The notes under the pieces are model-generated. The model searched no databases. It had not been told where the DNA came from and saw only the letters and a list, made by a program, of their open reading frames with translations. 34,578 bases of DNA, taken from positions 1 to 34,578 of IMG/VR virus record IMGVR_UViG_3300026484_000107. The stretch is one strand, 5' to 3'. A program made the position numbers and the translations under genes. Numbering within the stretch: position 1 is the stretch's first letter; each line of letters opens with the position of its first letter. This DNA comes from a virus. Below are positions 3,958 to 24,482 of the stretch, in pieces.

Positions 3958-4536
3958 TTAGTCATGCTGCATGCAATCTATATATAGTTTTTTATGATCT
4001 TCTGGTAAATTTTCATAAACCATTTTAGCTAATTCTCTTATCTCTTCTAAAGCAGCTTTAGATGTTCTAAGATTTAAGAAATTTCTTAAACTACTATAAC
4101 CTATAGTAAAAGTTAATTCAGTATAATAACATTCTGGTAAGTTATATTTAGCTACATCATTAGAAATACCATTAATTATAGATGTTCTTAATAACTCTAG
4201 TTCTATAACACTATTAGTATCTACTAATTTATTACCAGTAAACTTAATATATTTACTAGCTCTATTTTTATTAAACTTATTAATATATAAACCAGTTCTT
4301 TCTATAATATCAGTAGACTCTAAAACACATCCATTAAAAGATAAAAAAGTATCTTCTTTTTTTAATTCTTTTAAAGTATATCTACTACTCTTAACACTAA
4401 AGTTAGTATCATATCTATGTCTAGCTAATTCTTGTAACAATGCTCTTGTTACACCTTTAAAATAGAAGTTATAACTTAAATGTTCTTTAAAATACTCTAT
4501 ATCTACATCACTGTAATTTAATAATTTAACATTCAT
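3958..4536 (-). CDS. thyX: Flavin-dependent thymidylate synthase, C-terminal half
   Basis: ThyX makes dTMP from dUMP using methylene-tetrahydrofolate and FAD. This 192-residue piece carries the core motif: Arg39-His40-Arg41, then FSVKSSRYTLKEL with Ser50 and Arg52. It is followed by NDVAKYNLPECYYTEL (126-141), a C-terminal RNFLNLRTSKAALEEIR (151-167) and a terminal LPEDHK. From about residue 18 this reads closely like the second two-thirds of Helicobacter and Campylobacter ThyX, from memory. The ATG at 4536 is chosen because AGGAG sits 6 bases upstream, inside the end of the N-terminal-half gene. The open frame extends up to 4587 without a better site. The two halves overlap by 11 bases. A working enzyme would need both polypeptides to assemble; that is inference. 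Confidence 0.85.
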   Translation of the reverse strand: MNVKLLNYSDVDIEYFKEHLSYNFYFKGVTRALLQELARHRYDTNFSVKSSRYTLKELKKEDTFLSFNGCVLESTDIIERTGLYINKFNKNRASKYIKFTGNKLVDTNSVIELELLRTSIINGISNDVAKYNLPECYYTELTFTIGYSSLRNFLNLRTSKAALEEIRELAKMVYENLPEDHKKLYIDCMQHD

Positions 4537-4966
4537 CATTATCTCCTGTAAACAAAAATCTATATTCATCAGGAATAATAGATTCAATAAGTAAATCTTT
4601 ACTTAATAAATTATTGTCATAAGCAGACATTAATACTCTTAAGTTAGTAGATACTACATAAGTTTCATCATCTTTGACTTCTATTTTACTAAAAGGATCA
4701 TTTATAAAAAAACTAATACATTCAGTAACATCAGTATTCTCTAAATATCTTTTATCTTCTTCATCATTATGATTTACTTTAAAGAGATAAATTACTCTTA
4801 AATGCTCTATAGTACTCTGATGTTTAAATTTTCTACTTACTCTATAGATTCTTTCATGATCACATTCTTCTTTTTGTTTATCCCAACATGTACCTATTGC
4901 GATATCACCTATCTCTATAGGTGTGGTATAAACCACATCTACCTGAGTTTTATCAAAATTACTCAT
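4526..4966 (-). CDS. thyX: Flavin-dependent thymidylate synthase, N-terminal half
   Basis: The 146-residue protein starts after AGGAGAAAGTA. It contains the N-terminal ThyX signature: TCW at 26-28, RIYRVSRKFKHQSTIEHL at about 39-56 with the conserved Ser/Thr and Glu54-His55, then a short hydrophobic strand. This matches the first third of Campylobacterota ThyX. The RHR core is absent from this protein and lies in the next gene. After residue 65 about 80 residues (including VVSTNLRVLMSAYD) have no counterpart in the short Campylobacter enzyme as I remember it. The stop codon lies 11 bases past the start of the C-terminal-half gene, which suggests coupled translation. No nearby slippery sequence was seen. 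It could be a relic, but both halves keep intact motifs. Confidence 0.8.
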   Translation of the reverse strand: MSNFDKTQVDVVYTTPIEIGDIAIGTCWDKQKEECDHERIYRVSRKFKHQSTIEHLRVIYLFKVNHNDEEDKRYLENTDVTECISFFINDPFSKIEVKDDETYVVSTNLRVLMSAYDNNLLSKDLLIESIIPDEYRFLFTGDNDEC

Positions 4967-5226
4967 TACTTTCTCCTATTTCTTTTTTTAGAAGCTTTTG
5001 CTAATTTAGCTTTCTTTTTATCTTTAGGTTTTTTACCTTTAGACTGTTTCTTACTAGGATTGAGTGACTTAGCTTCCACAGCTTTTTTCAATATAGCTTC
5101 TACTTCTGCGTCAGCTTGTTCTATAGTCACATCATTATCAGTACCGGGGGTTACTTTTAATTCTGATTCTCCTGGATTTTTCTCTTTAACACTGATATCA
5201 AAATCAGTTAATTTCTTTTCAGACAT
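4966..5226 (-). CDS. Small protein with acidic head and Lys/Arg-rich tail
   Basis: The 86-residue protein is acidic to residue about 55 (VTIEQADAEVEAIL). It is then almost entirely basic to the end (KKQSKGKKPKDKKKAKLAK, ending KRNRRK). Such tails usually bind nucleic acid or acidic proteins. The start follows AAAGGAATGAA, and the stop overlaps the thyX N-half start as TAATG, so the two are likely coupled. I do not recognise the family; a DNA- or RNA-binding accessory role is inferred only from composition. Confidence 0.7.
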   Translation of the reverse strand: MSEKKLTDFDISVKEKNPGESELKVTPGTDNDVTIEQADAEVEAILKKAVEAKSLNPSKKQSKGKKPKDKKKAKLAKASKKRNRRK

Positions 5227-5235
5227 TTCATTCCT

Positions 5236-5457
5236 TTAAAATAATTTATATTTACCAAGTATGTCGCTCAATTGGTAATTTCTTAATCGCTCTAAACTAT
5301 TAACACAATCTTCTATATTATAGTAATCCATAATAGTGAAAGTATTGTTTTTAATAGTTCTAGGTTGTATATTTTTAATTTCACTAGATGTCAAAACACA
5401 AATAGGGAATTTGTGCTTCTCTTTTTTAATTTTAGAATTCAATCTCGCATTGTCCAC
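5236..5457 (-). CDS. Small unknown protein, 73 aa
   Basis: This frame opens at GTG 5455-5457, with AAGGA 7 bases upstream, and overlaps the 3' end of the ribonucleotide reductase gene by 26 bases. A TTG at 5442 is a possible alternative start. The protein (MDNARLNSKIKKEKHKFPIC at the N-terminus) is basic at first, then polar and helical. There is no recognisable motif. Its place between the reductase and the thyX genes suggests an accessory protein of nucleotide metabolism, but nothing in the sequence proves this. Confidence 0.65.
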   Translation of the reverse strand: MDNARLNSKIKKEKHKFPICVLTSSEIKNIQPRTIKNNTFTIMDYYNIEDCVNSLERLRNYQLSDILGKYKLF

Positions 5458-7612
5458 CTGAACATCCTTGTGATCCTAATGTATCAATATCAACATATTC
5501 TTTTTTACCTAATTCAGTAACCCAATTTATATCATGTGCGTTATTTGTAATTTTCCACCACTTATGTAAATTATATACATCTTTTAAACAATCAGAACAA
5601 TCTTTATTAGATTTAAAATTACTAGCAAATTTATTAAATCGTCTAACAAAATCTCTTTTTAATAAATCTTTACTACTATCAGTTAGCTCTAGTCCTTCAC
5701 CCAATGCAGTATTTATAGCTGTCCATAAATCATTATTATATGCATTTAATCCAGCTTCAATAAGTGCTGAAGTGAATAATGAAATTTCACCATATTTTTC
5801 AACAATTTCTTCATGAGTTAATACTTCTGTAAATGGTGCTTGTGGGTATGCCTTATCACCAGCTGCTGACAATAAAGAAACCCCACATAAACTATATCTA
5901 TTATCATAAATATATTTAGTTACTTCATCCCAATCATCAACAGTAATAGTATTAGATACATTATGTTTAAGAAATGGTTTTACACATAGTTCTTTATTAG
6001 TACCATATTCTATCCAATTCTCTTGAGCATTTTTAACATATTCTAATTGTTTTACACCTAATAAATCAGATTTATAAATACTGCCTTCTTTAGGTTCAAT
6101 AGGGAATCCTATTACATAATCGGTTTGTGACCATACTGAATCTTCAACCATATGTGGATTAGTTTTTTCAAACAGATTACCGACTTCAGCTGTCTTATTC
6201 ATTTGTACATGTCTAATATACCTTTTAGAATGTTCTCCGTGTATACCTGACGCACAACCTAATAATACACTAGCATTACCACTAGGTTTAACAACAGTAG
6301 TTCTAGCAGCTTGATTAATGCCTATAAGTTCAGCAACTTTTTTATTCCACTTTTTAACTATTTCAGCACCAGTTCGTTGTGTTTCTTTATCGAATAAAAT
6401 ATCTGGGTTATTCATCCACCCAGTAATACCAACACCAATAAGAGCTTCACGTTCAACAATGTTAATACTAGCTTTTTCTAAATAATCAAATTTAGTATAC
6501 CCAGCTTGTAAAGTACCTAATATAGCACCAGCTTTACATTGTTTATAAAAAATCTCTTTATCATTTGATTTACCACCGTTTATTTCTGTAAGGTTACACA
6601 TCTGCCATCCAGAATCACCATTTTCATCATAACCCTGCATACCTACTTCAACACAAGGATTAAATAACATATCTAAATCATCAGACCAAACAAAACCTGG
6701 TTCACCTGAATGTTGTACAGATTTCATAATTTCATTAAATTCTTCAAAATCAGTAGAATCTCTTAATAATACTGCGGAATTGTTACTTCTTCCTCTTTGT
6801 CCATTAGTGATAAACCAATCACCAGTTTTAGCTTTAATCATATCTATATCGTCATGACTAAATAAACAAATTGATGCTGCTCTTCTAACACCACCAGAAA
6901 TTACTGCATCAGCTATATGCATAATAATATCATACGCTACAATAGTTCTAACAGTATTAATACCATTATTTATTTCATTAGATAACAATTCTTCAATTTT
7001 ATATAAACATTTTCTTAATGGTTCTGGTCCAGGTGCTTTAAACCCACCACTTATCATAGCACCTTTTTTACGTATTTTACTTAAATCAAATACTATCGGT
7101 GATTTAGCCCATTCTGATTCAATATCGAAAAATGATTTCATCAATACATCAACAGCATTAGCCCATCCTTCAATACTATCTTCCACAATATATGACTTAG
7201 GTTCTTTATCTCTAATTGTTATTTTAGGTAATTTTTCTATATGTTGTTTTTGTACAGAAAAACCAACACCACAACCACATAACATTAACCAAAATGCTTC
7301 TGAAAAGAACTTAACTCTATCACAATAAGATGCTGTACAATTATACATTTTAGCATGTTTATTTAATAATTGATCACCACCAAATTGTAAAGCTCTTTGA
7401 GCACCTAATACTTCTTTATTTTTATAACTGTTAGAACTATATTCAATCAGTTCATTAAGCTCAGGTGTCATTATTTCAGAATAATAACTTCTATGCATAC
7501 TCATAACTCTATCTACTGCTTCTTCCCAAGTTTCATATCTATTTTTATCTTCTAAAAATCTTGCATAAGATTCATAAAATTTTGCTTCTGACATTAGTTT
7601 TGATGTTTTCAA
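5432..7612 (-). CDS. nrdJ: Adenosylcobalamin-dependent ribonucleotide reductase (class II)
   Basis: The enzyme reduces ribonucleotides to deoxyribonucleotides using a thiyl radical made with coenzyme B12. The protein has 726 residues, close to the monomeric RTPR type (about 730-740). Visible motifs are Cys92 near the N-terminus; NPCVE with Cys320 as probable thiyl Cys and Glu322; CNLTE with Cys339 as the partner Cys; SGGVRRAAS at 239-247; VVKPSGNASVLLGCASGIH; and a C-terminal GCSGGQC with Cys717/Cys722 as the re-reducing pair. The start is TTG (7610-7612), with AAGGA 6 bases upstream; the next ATG (7594) has no ribosome binding site. It lies in one unit with thyX, so dTTP and dNTP supply are encoded together. 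No separate small subunit is needed for this class. Confidence 0.93.
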   Translation of the reverse strand: MKTSKLMSEAKFYESYARFLEDKNRYETWEEAVDRVMSMHRSYYSEIMTPELNELIEYSSNSYKNKEVLGAQRALQFGGDQLLNKHAKMYNCTASYCDRVKFFSEAFWLMLCGCGVGFSVQKQHIEKLPKITIRDKEPKSYIVEDSIEGWANAVDVLMKSFFDIESEWAKSPIVFDLSKIRKKGAMISGGFKAPGPEPLRKCLYKIEELLSNEINNGINTVRTIVAYDIIMHIADAVISGGVRRAASICLFSHDDIDMIKAKTGDWFITNGQRGRSNNSAVLLRDSTDFEEFNEIMKSVQHSGEPGFVWSDDLDMLFNPCVEVGMQGYDENGDSGWQMCNLTEINGGKSNDKEIFYKQCKAGAILGTLQAGYTKFDYLEKASINIVEREALIGVGITGWMNNPDILFDKETQRTGAEIVKKWNKKVAELIGINQAARTTVVKPSGNASVLLGCASGIHGEHSKRYIRHVQMNKTAEVGNLFEKTNPHMVEDSVWSQTDYVIGFPIEPKEGSIYKSDLLGVKQLEYVKNAQENWIEYGTNKELCVKPFLKHNVSNTITVDDWDEVTKYIYDNRYSLCGVSLLSAAGDKAYPQAPFTEVLTHEEIVEKYGEISLFTSALIEAGLNAYNNDLWTAINTALGEGLELTDSSKDLLKRDFVRRFNKFASNFKSNKDCSDCLKDVYNLHKWWKITNNAHDINWVTELGKKEYVDIDTLGSQGCSGGQCEIEF

Positions 7613-10366: not shown

Positions 10367-10387
10367 TAGAGGAATTTTAATCCTCTA
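10367..10387 (-). terminator. Short hairpin at the end of the HNH/NUMOD gene
   Basis: Stem TAGAGGA/TCCTCTA with a 7-base loop, overlapping the stop codon of the endonuclease-like gene. On the minus strand only a weak U-rich stretch follows (TGGTATTGTTTG). Confidence 0.45.
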
Positions 10388-12086
10388 GATATTTAAAATA
10401 CTCACCCTTTCTAGTTGGTTCACCTGTTCTTAATGATCTAACTATTGGTTTCTCACTATATTCAGTATTTTCAATGGCTTCTGATATAGTATCATATATT
10501 TTTTCTTCACCATCTTTATTAATATACGATATTCTTTTACGTTTATATTTTTTGTACTCTTCTATTCTAGTATTTAATAAATCTATACTATAATCATCTT
10601 TATATATAAGTATATATCCATTTAAACCAGATTTAATTTTACCATTAGCAGCTGATCTAACTCTGTTTAATTCATTATCATTTAGATTATCTTTACCCAA
10701 AATATCTTTAGCTACTTCTATTATGGATGAATAATTTTTATATAATTTACCGTCATGTGTAAACGCTATAACAGCTTTATATTTTCTAAACACATTACCA
10801 TTTTTATTTTCGGTACCACTTTCTTTTATTCGTTCTAATATTCTTTTAAGATCATTTGCGTTATAATCTTTAGAATACATATATACTTTACCGTTTATAG
10901 GATTTAAATTACGTCGTAAGTATTCGCCTAAAGTACTTGGTTTTATACCTGAATATTCTGCTGCCTCTTTAATAGAACCACATCGTTTATAAACAGTGCC
11001 ATCTAAATTAAATATATCGACACCTTTATGTTCTTTTTTATTATTAGTATCCCATGTAACTAATCTAATATTCTCAAAACTATAACCTAGGTGATTGTAA
11101 ATTCTATCTATAGATGGTTTTAATTTAATATCGTAATTACTCTTAACCCACTCATCATACATTCTGTCATAACTAGGATGTCTATTTAACCACTCTTGTA
11201 ATTCTTCTTTAGTATATGTAGGCTTAGGATGTTTTCTTTGTATAGATTTAGATACTTGATTAGAATATATATGCCAACCTAATCTATCTTTTCTTTTAGC
11301 AATACTATTACGACATTCTAAACAATCAGTACTATAACCATCTAATGTTTTTGAATTCTTACTGAATTTATTTTTAGGTAACATTCTTTTACATACGATA
11401 CATTTTTTAGTATCTGCATTCATAGCTTCTTCTTTCATTTTATCTACAGTTGTAAATGTTATGTTGTCTAAAGTATAACCCTTAGATTTATCTATTAATT
11501 TAAGTCTTGGTGTTTTAGATAATGTTTTTCTATCCCATTCTTTATGTAGCTTCATGAAGTCACTATCTTCTTTAAGGAATCTGTCCCAGAACTCCTCTCT
11601 GGTGAATTTAAGATCAGTACCTTTCTTACTATGATATCTATATATAGATGATAGAACTAAGTTAGGTTCTTTTAATTTATATTGTACACATTTTTTACAA
11701 TAGTCATGATGACCATCAGCGTGCCCTCTAGCGTTAGAACCAACTTTACCGAAGTCTGATAAGGGTAGCTCTAGTTTACATCTTGTACATACCTTAGTTT
11801 TAACCTGAGCGCTATGTAGGTTCTTAGTGGATATTTGTATATCATCAATAGTAACTTTATTACTACCGATAGATTCTTTAGTGAAAGGTATTACTATTGG
11901 GAAATCTTTTTGATCTTTGGTTTCAGTATATCTATTTAATATAGATATGAATTGTCCGTCGATACTTAACTTTTGATAAAATTGTTCTAAAGAGAAATTA
12001 ACTATTAAGTTTTCTTTAGCCGCAATTATCTTAATTACTCTATATAGGTTACCTATTATCTTAGGTACATTGTTCTGTGTTAACAT
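10377..12086 (-). CDS. Free-standing HNH/NUMOD homing-endonuclease-like protein
   Basis: The 569-residue protein has two copies of one module. Copy A: Zn knuckle Cys100/103/130/133, then FTREEFWDRF (161-170) and LKLIDKSKGYTLDNITFTT (195-213). Copy B: Zn knuckle Cys229/232/255/258, then YTKEELQEWL (291-300) and KPSIDRIYNHLGYSFENIRL (323-342), the usual form of phage HNH-like nucleases. NUMOD1-like DNA-binding modules follow at about 356-395 (FNLDGTVYK...SIKEAAEYSG), 435-497 and 513-569. Such genes encode selfish endonucleases that spread by cutting alleles lacking them. No interrupted gene is visible, so it would be a free-standing element next to the RecA-fold gene. Copy A has lost the RIDN-like residues and may only bind DNA. 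Start: AAAGGACTGTAAC before ATG. Confidence 0.8.
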   Translation of the reverse strand: MLTQNNVPKIIGNLYRVIKIIAAKENLIVNFSLEQFYQKLSIDGQFISILNRYTETKDQKDFPIVIPFTKESIGSNKVTIDDIQISTKNLHSAQVKTKVCTRCKLELPLSDFGKVGSNARGHADGHHDYCKKCVQYKLKEPNLVLSSIYRYHSKKGTDLKFTREEFWDRFLKEDSDFMKLHKEWDRKTLSKTPRLKLIDKSKGYTLDNITFTTVDKMKEEAMNADTKKCIVCKRMLPKNKFSKNSKTLDGYSTDCLECRNSIAKRKDRLGWHIYSNQVSKSIQRKHPKPTYTKEELQEWLNRHPSYDRMYDEWVKSNYDIKLKPSIDRIYNHLGYSFENIRLVTWDTNNKKEHKGVDIFNLDGTVYKRCGSIKEAAEYSGIKPSTLGEYLRRNLNPINGKVYMYSKDYNANDLKRILERIKESGTENKNGNVFRKYKAVIAFTHDGKLYKNYSSIIEVAKDILGKDNLNDNELNRVRSAANGKIKSGLNGYILIYKDDYSIDLLNTRIEEYKKYKRKRISYINKDGEEKIYDTISEAIENTEYSEKPIVRSLRTGEPTRKGEYFKYLED

Positions 12087-24038: not shown

Positions 24039-24482
24039 TTATTTTTCCTTTTTCTTATAGTTGGCTACAGCTAATCTAACTTCGTAATCATTATCGTCTT
24101 TAAGCTGTTCATGATATTTATCAGAATATCTAGCCACAGCTACCCTTACACACCAATAATCATCGTCCTTTAACTGTTCATGATATTTATCACTATATTC
24201 AGCTACTGCTACTCTAACATGCCAATCTTCATGCGTCACTAATTCTCCATGTAACACATCTGTTAACCAGCTCATATCTCTGGCATCATTCAACTTAGAT
24301 ATATACAGATCTCTAGCTTTACCAGTATACTTTTCAGATATAATCTTTACAGCTTCATCGTATGTACCTTCAAAACACCCTATTTCATATATACTATCTT
24401 TGATAGTTATAACTCTTTTCTTCTCACAGCAGTTTATAGCGAACCCATCTATAAATGGTCCTTTTGTAGTCACATTATTCAT
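24039..24482 (-). CDS. 23-residue-repeat (HEAT/LRV-like) protein, short copy
   Basis: This 147-residue protein is a paralogue of the 166-747 protein. The N-terminal 88 residues align without gaps (KG-IDGFAI, KRVIT, IGC-EGTYDEA, ISEKYTG-ARD, WLTD). The repeat array then has only units 89-111 and 112-134 and a partial 135-144. The 46-residue length difference is exactly two 23-residue units. AAAAAGGAAATAA precedes the ATG. It heads the small-gene operon that ends with the AAA+ ATPase. A protein-binding solenoid is inferred from the repeat type; the partner is unknown. Confidence 0.82.
   Translation of the reverse strand: MNNVTTKGPFIDGFAINCCEKKRVITIKDSIYEIGCFEGTYDEAVKIISEKYTGKARDLYISKLNDARDMSWLTDVLHGELVTHEDWHVRVAVAEYSDKYHEQLKDDDYWCVRVAVARYSDKYHEQLKDDNDYEVRLAVANYKKKEK
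24051..24218 (-). repeat. 69-bp coding tandem repeat, about 2.4 units
   Basis: This is the DNA of the 23-residue repeats in the short paralogue, in the same register as the array at 178-483. Confidence 0.75.

Follow-up and report, generated by a model that had tools for sequence, protein, structure and literature searches.

Two overlapping genes share the ThyX motifs between them

Ordinary ThyX is a homotetramer, and each of its active sites is built by three chains. A locus in the window, by which we mean the whole 34.6-kb IMG/VR fragment analyzed here (27.6% GC), raised the question of whether such an enzyme can be encoded as two different polypeptides. Relatives of the window's head protein occur in jumbo phages, including Burkholderia phage FLC9 and phages of Pseudomonas (phrog_3231). 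Two overlapping ORFs, hereafter up and dn, lie on the minus strand between 3958 and 4966 (Table 1). An ORF and motif check of that strand upheld the coordinates, motifs, and overlap given in a preliminary description of the locus. Two ATG codons are available at the start of dn, the second of which has the better AGGAG spacing; a TTG further upstream, at 4587, is a possible but unlikely alternative. Incidentally, the match to a ribonucleotide reductase relative in another contig (L010, 10001-13066) was ~900 bases longer than others, pointing to a probable intein or intron in that gene.

Table 1. Features of the thyX locus in the window
Feature	Position	Strand	Description
up gene	4526..4966	-	146 aa; ThyX-like subunit (predicted) with H-x-S FAD loop and STNLR, without RHR
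dn gene	3958..4539	-	193 aa from first ATG; 192 aa from better placed second ATG at 4536; catalytic ThyX subunit (predicted)
Overlap of up end and dn start	4526..4536	-	11 bases from second dn ATG; 14 bases if first ATG (4539) is used
dn ribosome-binding site AGGAG	4543..4547	-	inside the end of up, 6 bases before second ATG; ACAGGAGATAATGATGAATGTTAA
up ribosome-binding site AGGAG	4973..4977	-	6 bases before start; AGGAGAAAGTAATG
Tail module of up	4526..4798	-	aa 57-146: PFSKI, strand + STNLRVL, PDEYRFLF; homologous to the module inside long-form ThyX
Ribonucleotide reductase	5432..7612	-	same strand, upstream of up; phrog_367, 8.2e-94; nucleotide-metabolism context

The up product carries TCW (aa 26-28), KHQSTIEHL (aa 48-56), and STNLR (aa 106-110), and RHR is absent from it. 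The dn product carries ARHR (aa 39-42, RHR being aa 40-42), SVKSSRY (aa 48-54), and the C-terminal helices, and it retains most of the dUMP-side residues. It is devoid of the H-x-S loop and shows GYS (aa 147-149, in IGYS) where the NAR motif was expected. This bore out the earlier statement that up has the N-terminal ThyX motifs without RHR and dn the RHR/SSRY core with the C-terminal part. No single ORF at the locus carries all the ThyX motifs expected of a one-chain, homotetrameric enzyme. The Pfam Thy1 profile (PF02511) matched dn with an E value of 1.3e-25 (90.7 bits, for a cut-off of 24.8), from profile position 55 only, and up alone gave no Pfam match above cut-off. With a profile built from 74 phage ThyX, the match to up was confined to the N-terminus (4.5e-14), and that to dn began at the EH strand and ran to the end (2.3e-62). 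Both products possess strand 1 as well as the EH strand. The "half genes" of the preliminary description are therefore not complementary fragments of one chain, but the motifs that each has lost are indeed complementary.

In solved ThyX structures, one FAD is held by the RHR of chain A together with Ser50 and Arg165 (H. pylori numbering) of chain B, the H-x-S loop contacts FAD, and chain C places Val82 on the dUMP side (PMC6514825). By alignment, the equivalents of Ser50 and Arg165 are S51 (in KHQSTIEH) and R110 (in STNLR) of up; both are absent in dn. Because up of the window has the Ser50 loop and the NxR, and dn has RHR and SVKSSRY, up would take the role of chain B and dn those of chains A and C. 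Thus, the complementary active-site residues of the two products fit, as predicted roles, the chain roles known from ThyX structures. Taken together, the two genes show the Thy1 profile match, the RHR (in dn), and, by alignment, the Ser50/Arg165 FAD contacts (in up) of a ThyX.

The same gene pair in an otherwise unrelated contig

Members of the dn family were searched for in IMG/VR, and tblastn with up was then run; this yielded the same gene pair in one further contig, L107 (IMGVR_UViG_3300026484_000244, 40 kb). Its up product (118 aa) aligned to that of the window over the full length, tail included (38%, E value 6.5e-18). Its dn product (168 aa, 43%) has an equally short start (MQVNLLHYTNLEPSEYTEHL versus MMNVKLLNYSDVDIEYFKEHL in the window), with the same ~45-residue stretch missing. 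An HNH endonuclease gene (phrog_374, 6.6e-43) sits between up and dn in L107, and there is none between the two genes of the window. The partition of residues is intermediate in L107, where NAR persists in dn and up shows SSNAR.

Direct protein comparison of the L107 contig with the window revealed no other shared protein beyond the pair. Nor did the L107 contig show a phiKZ-type head protein, in a search whose positive control was also silent. Since the rest of the contig shares no protein with the window, the pair appears to have stayed together, or moved together, between unrelated phages. Its presence in such an unrelated contig also makes decay or sequencing error unlikely. Approximately unbiased (AU) tests rejected neither the two dn as one clade (p = 0.85) nor the two up as one clade (p = 0.74), on poorly resolved trees, and this is compatible with a single origin of the pair. 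All other ThyX matches with a judgeable start were single chains. Searching phages and plasmids by tblastn gave no further up homologue, IMG/VR scans gave no pair beyond L107, and a GTDB scan gave none that was confirmed; these searches thus gave two examples of the gene pair.

The tail of up resembles a module of long-form ThyX

The ~80 "extra" residues that the preliminary description had noticed in up are present, but they are not filler: profile tests point to a recognizable ThyX module, which reads PYS..TTNxRVL..PTEY inside the single-chain long-form ThyX of crAss-like phages. Unusually long ThyX (346 aa in Jenst; ~300 aa, the long form, in crAss-like phages) consist of an N-terminal ThyX part, an extra module, and then the RHR core. 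A profile of 30 crAss-type sequences matched up of the window continuously (aa 29-121, E value 6e-11) and up of L107 likewise (aa 34-109, 1e-8). With a module-only profile, the tail of the window protein scored 30.3 bits, against 18.8 for the best of 2000 shuffles, and that of L107 scored 16.5 bits, against a shuffle maximum of 10.3; none of the 2000 shuffles reached the module score. With a profile of the ordinary ThyX C-terminus, the window and L107 tails scored 8.8 and 14.5, the shuffle maxima being 7.3 and 7.9, respectively. Because all these scores exceed those of the shuffles, the module of up is taken to be homologous to the long-form module, and it is probably a copy of the ThyX NAR region itself. 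We relied on profile tests here, as MAFFT had misplaced the up tail against LPEAY.

TTNxR was found in the module of 26 of the 30 long forms examined, and most of them have no NAR at the C-terminal site, where TGx mostly stands instead. Judging from the motifs, the same loss of NAR would have taken place within one chain in the long forms and across two chains in the window, with STNLR in up and GYS in dn. A PDB sequence search with a crAss long form returned ThyX chains only, none with the module. The earlier hint of a duplication or insertion agrees with these data: up resembles a core-trimmed ThyX copy bearing the long-form module, and strand 1 and the EH strand are repeated. Long-form ThyX of crAss-like phages with a TTNxR module and a mostly lost C-terminal NAR, possibly built-in pseudodimers, were seen at L186 (541-1464), L191 (601-1500), and in L192-L271.

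Structure predictions

In the AlphaFold run on up, all alignment rows except that of L107 up stopped before the tail. Residues 6-141 of the resulting model (pLDDT 76.6, pTM 0.61) aligned to residues 0-204 of an H. pylori ThyX chain (Z 10.7, rmsd 2.7, 122 residues). The top 47 entries of the structure comparison were all ThyX-family folds, and the best unrelated fold had a Z of 3.7. Foldseek gave weak matches only, ThyX first, and a viral-structure search led to unusually long ThyX. The prediction for up by itself is thus a complete, though trimmed, ThyX chain, tail included.

A different picture came from an artificial up-dn fusion submitted as one chain, in which AlphaFold fitted up, by its N-terminus, into dn to form a single composite subunit. 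Compared with a single H. pylori ThyX chain, this model spans 4-334 with 186 residues (Z 19.7), dn alone offering ~156 positions. Its pLDDT was 93-97 over much of dn and 39-52 in the up tail (pTM 0.57), and no row of the alignment joined the up and dn parts. The fusion model favors a composite subunit, but a single-chain network is biased towards the known single-chain fold, and the composite-subunit model leaves unexplained why both products have retained strand 1 and the EH strand.

Comparison with known ThyX and with split phage enzymes

The Campylobacterota-type single-chain ThyX, namely those of H. pylori (PDB 3AH5/3N3Y), Campylobacter phage CP220 and Fletchervirus, and two IMG/VR contigs (L106 and L109), resemble the pair in that the dn core is ~46-57% identical to theirs, the N-terminus of up is 59% identical to that of L109, and all motifs are recognizable. 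However, they hold all residues in one chain, form a homotetramer, and have no module after the EH strand. Such a module is found in the long-form ThyX of crAss-like phages (PhiCrAssBcn13 and crAss001, ~300 aa), which also share the loss of the C-terminal NAR with dn of the window, though not with dn of L107. In contrast to the pair, their module and core are in one chain, and the core belongs to another ThyX branch. The Campylobacterota type is a much closer match to dn than the long form is (2.3e-62 versus 4.2e-11, obtained with different search settings). The long ThyX (~350 aa) of Brevibacillus phage Jenst and Bacillus phage EZ-2018a have an N-terminal domain with a GHLS loop and no RHR, followed by a domain with RH and SQRY, an arrangement reminiscent of up and dn. 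Yet, these are single chains of weak sequence similarity, and the first domain of Jenst has no NxR.

Essential enzymes of nucleotide or DNA metabolism in two polypeptides are also known from Aeh1 NrdA (mobE insertion) and from gp43A/B of phage 25. In the case of Aeh1 nrdA, the enzyme still works although its gene was split by insertion of an endonuclease gene (PMC2988022). The HNH endonuclease gene between up and dn of L107 recalls this case; the window has none there. Aeh1 NrdA and gp43A/B are cuts of one chain, whereas up and dn repeat strand 1 and the EH strand and so are not collinear.

A proposed two-subunit ThyX and the alternatives

We consider it very probable that the pair encodes a two-polypeptide ThyX, be it of separate or of composite subunits. 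An evolved enzyme of this kind, as opposed to a random frameshift, had been proposed in the preliminary description, and the proposal is supported by the pair in L107, the conserved tail of up, and the complementary active-site residues. As to its architecture, we lean towards up and dn being two different subunits of one hetero-oligomeric ThyX, for which we infer the complex, its stoichiometry, its activity, and the coupling of the genes. A thyX gene would have been duplicated and each copy then trimmed reciprocally. The dn subunit would play roles A and C, with RHR, SVKSSRY, and the dUMP site, and up would play role B, its H-x-S loop and the NxR of STNLR making the Ser50/Arg165-type contacts with FAD. 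The symmetry of the tetramer suggests an (up-dn)2 heterotetramer in which two active sites would be complete and the other two dead, and translational coupling via the 11-base overlap would keep the subunit levels comparable. Against this speak the NAR kept by dn of L107, which makes the residue partition complete in the window only, the AlphaFold fusion, which did not yield the predicted heterodimer, and the finding of only two examples of the gene pair.

An alternative is fragment complementation, wherein aa 1-56 of up fill the missing N-terminal part of dn to give a composite subunit in an up4 dn4 tetramer, the tail of up being an added piece that replaces the NAR contact. All four active sites would then be complete, there are precedents for phage enzymes that are split and reassemble (PMC2988022), and the fusion model aligned to one H. 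pylori chain across both parts even though no alignment row joined them. Yet, with strand 1 and the EH strand in both products of both phages, two segments would compete for one place; up by itself is predicted as a whole trimmed chain including its tail; and a monomer network run on a continuous chain is biased, as said above. We regard this arrangement as unlikely, albeit worth keeping in mind. More doubtful still is the reading that dn works as a ThyX on its own (or is a relic), up being a ThyX-derived protein with another job, for instance, a regulator. The absence of the catalytic RHR from up and the retention in dn of RHR, SxRY, and most dUMP-side residues, with NAR in addition in L107, would be in keeping with it. 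However, dn has no H-x-S loop, which contacts FAD (PMC6514825), and in the window no Arg165 equivalent either, while up keeps exactly the residues that dn lost, from a gene that overlaps dn in the window and neighbors it in L107.

Decay or artifact, in the form of a long-form thyX broken by a frameshift or of two decaying copies, seems very improbable. Single-chain long forms do exist, so that a break could give two frames, and thyX is interrupted by an intron or inserts in other phages. In contrast, the unrelated L107 shows conservation of both the up tail and the dn start, each gene has its own AGGAG, and no frameshift could have created the separate strand-1 segment that dn possesses. We rejected simple frameshift or decay on account of the conserved second case, and a group I intron between up and dn because no Rfam match was found in the window and the genes overlap.

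Coming back to the hetero-oligomeric ThyX, it may have arisen by duplication of thyX or else, within the Campylobacterota-type branch, from a long form that was split, with trimming as the next step. The chances seem to us evenly balanced that the enzyme is obligately heteromeric, with up as a FAD-holding pseudo-subunit, dn as the catalytic subunit, and half of the ancestral sites discarded, and that the long forms of crAss-like and other phages are fused pseudodimers, making asymmetric ThyX a widespread, undescribed class. In the open-access literature, of which our coverage was incomplete, we came across neither a heteromeric ThyX nor the long-form module. Three chains are needed to form the active site of ThyX, which is an antibacterial target. 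If the above holds true, chain roles would lie on separate proteins and each could be mutated separately, which is impossible in a homotetramer. The pair would also illustrate clearly how a homomer becomes a heteromer through reciprocal loss, and it would account for an extra module that has gone unnoticed in the ThyX of crAss-like phages, which are abundant in the gut.

Other interrupted or unusual phage thyX genes

Several other phage thyX genes are interrupted. The thyX of PhiCrAssBcn18 (L190, 601-1603) consists of two ORFs with a 14-base overlap, a helix-turn-helix-like insert breaking the module. PhiCrAssBcn14, 15, and 16 have two ThyX annotations each at the same place. The two-ORF thyX of crAss phages tikkala and frurule is not the same break as that between up and dn, being interrupted within RGVSH-EFVRHR: tikkala (L188, 1050-1429) has a group I intron (Rfam RF00028) just before EFVRHR, and frurule (L189) is arranged likewise, its small ORF being nearly identical. 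The gene upstream of the cr50_1 thyX was considered as another split case and rejected, as it encodes an unrelated protein. Long-form thyX is interrupted by ~0.8-1.1 kb at differing points in L239, L251, and L267. In L102, L111, L122, L144, and L155, the N-terminal loop of the phage ThyX bears CxxC...CxxC (zinc-ribbon-like) inserts.

Elsewhere on the minus strand of the window, a 569-aa protein (10377-12086; phrog_1035) has two endonuclease VII/HNH-type stretches and is a possible homing endonuclease. Two paralogous proteins (166-747 and 24039-24482, minus strand) have similar N-termini and ~24-residue repeats (YSDKYHEQLKDD).
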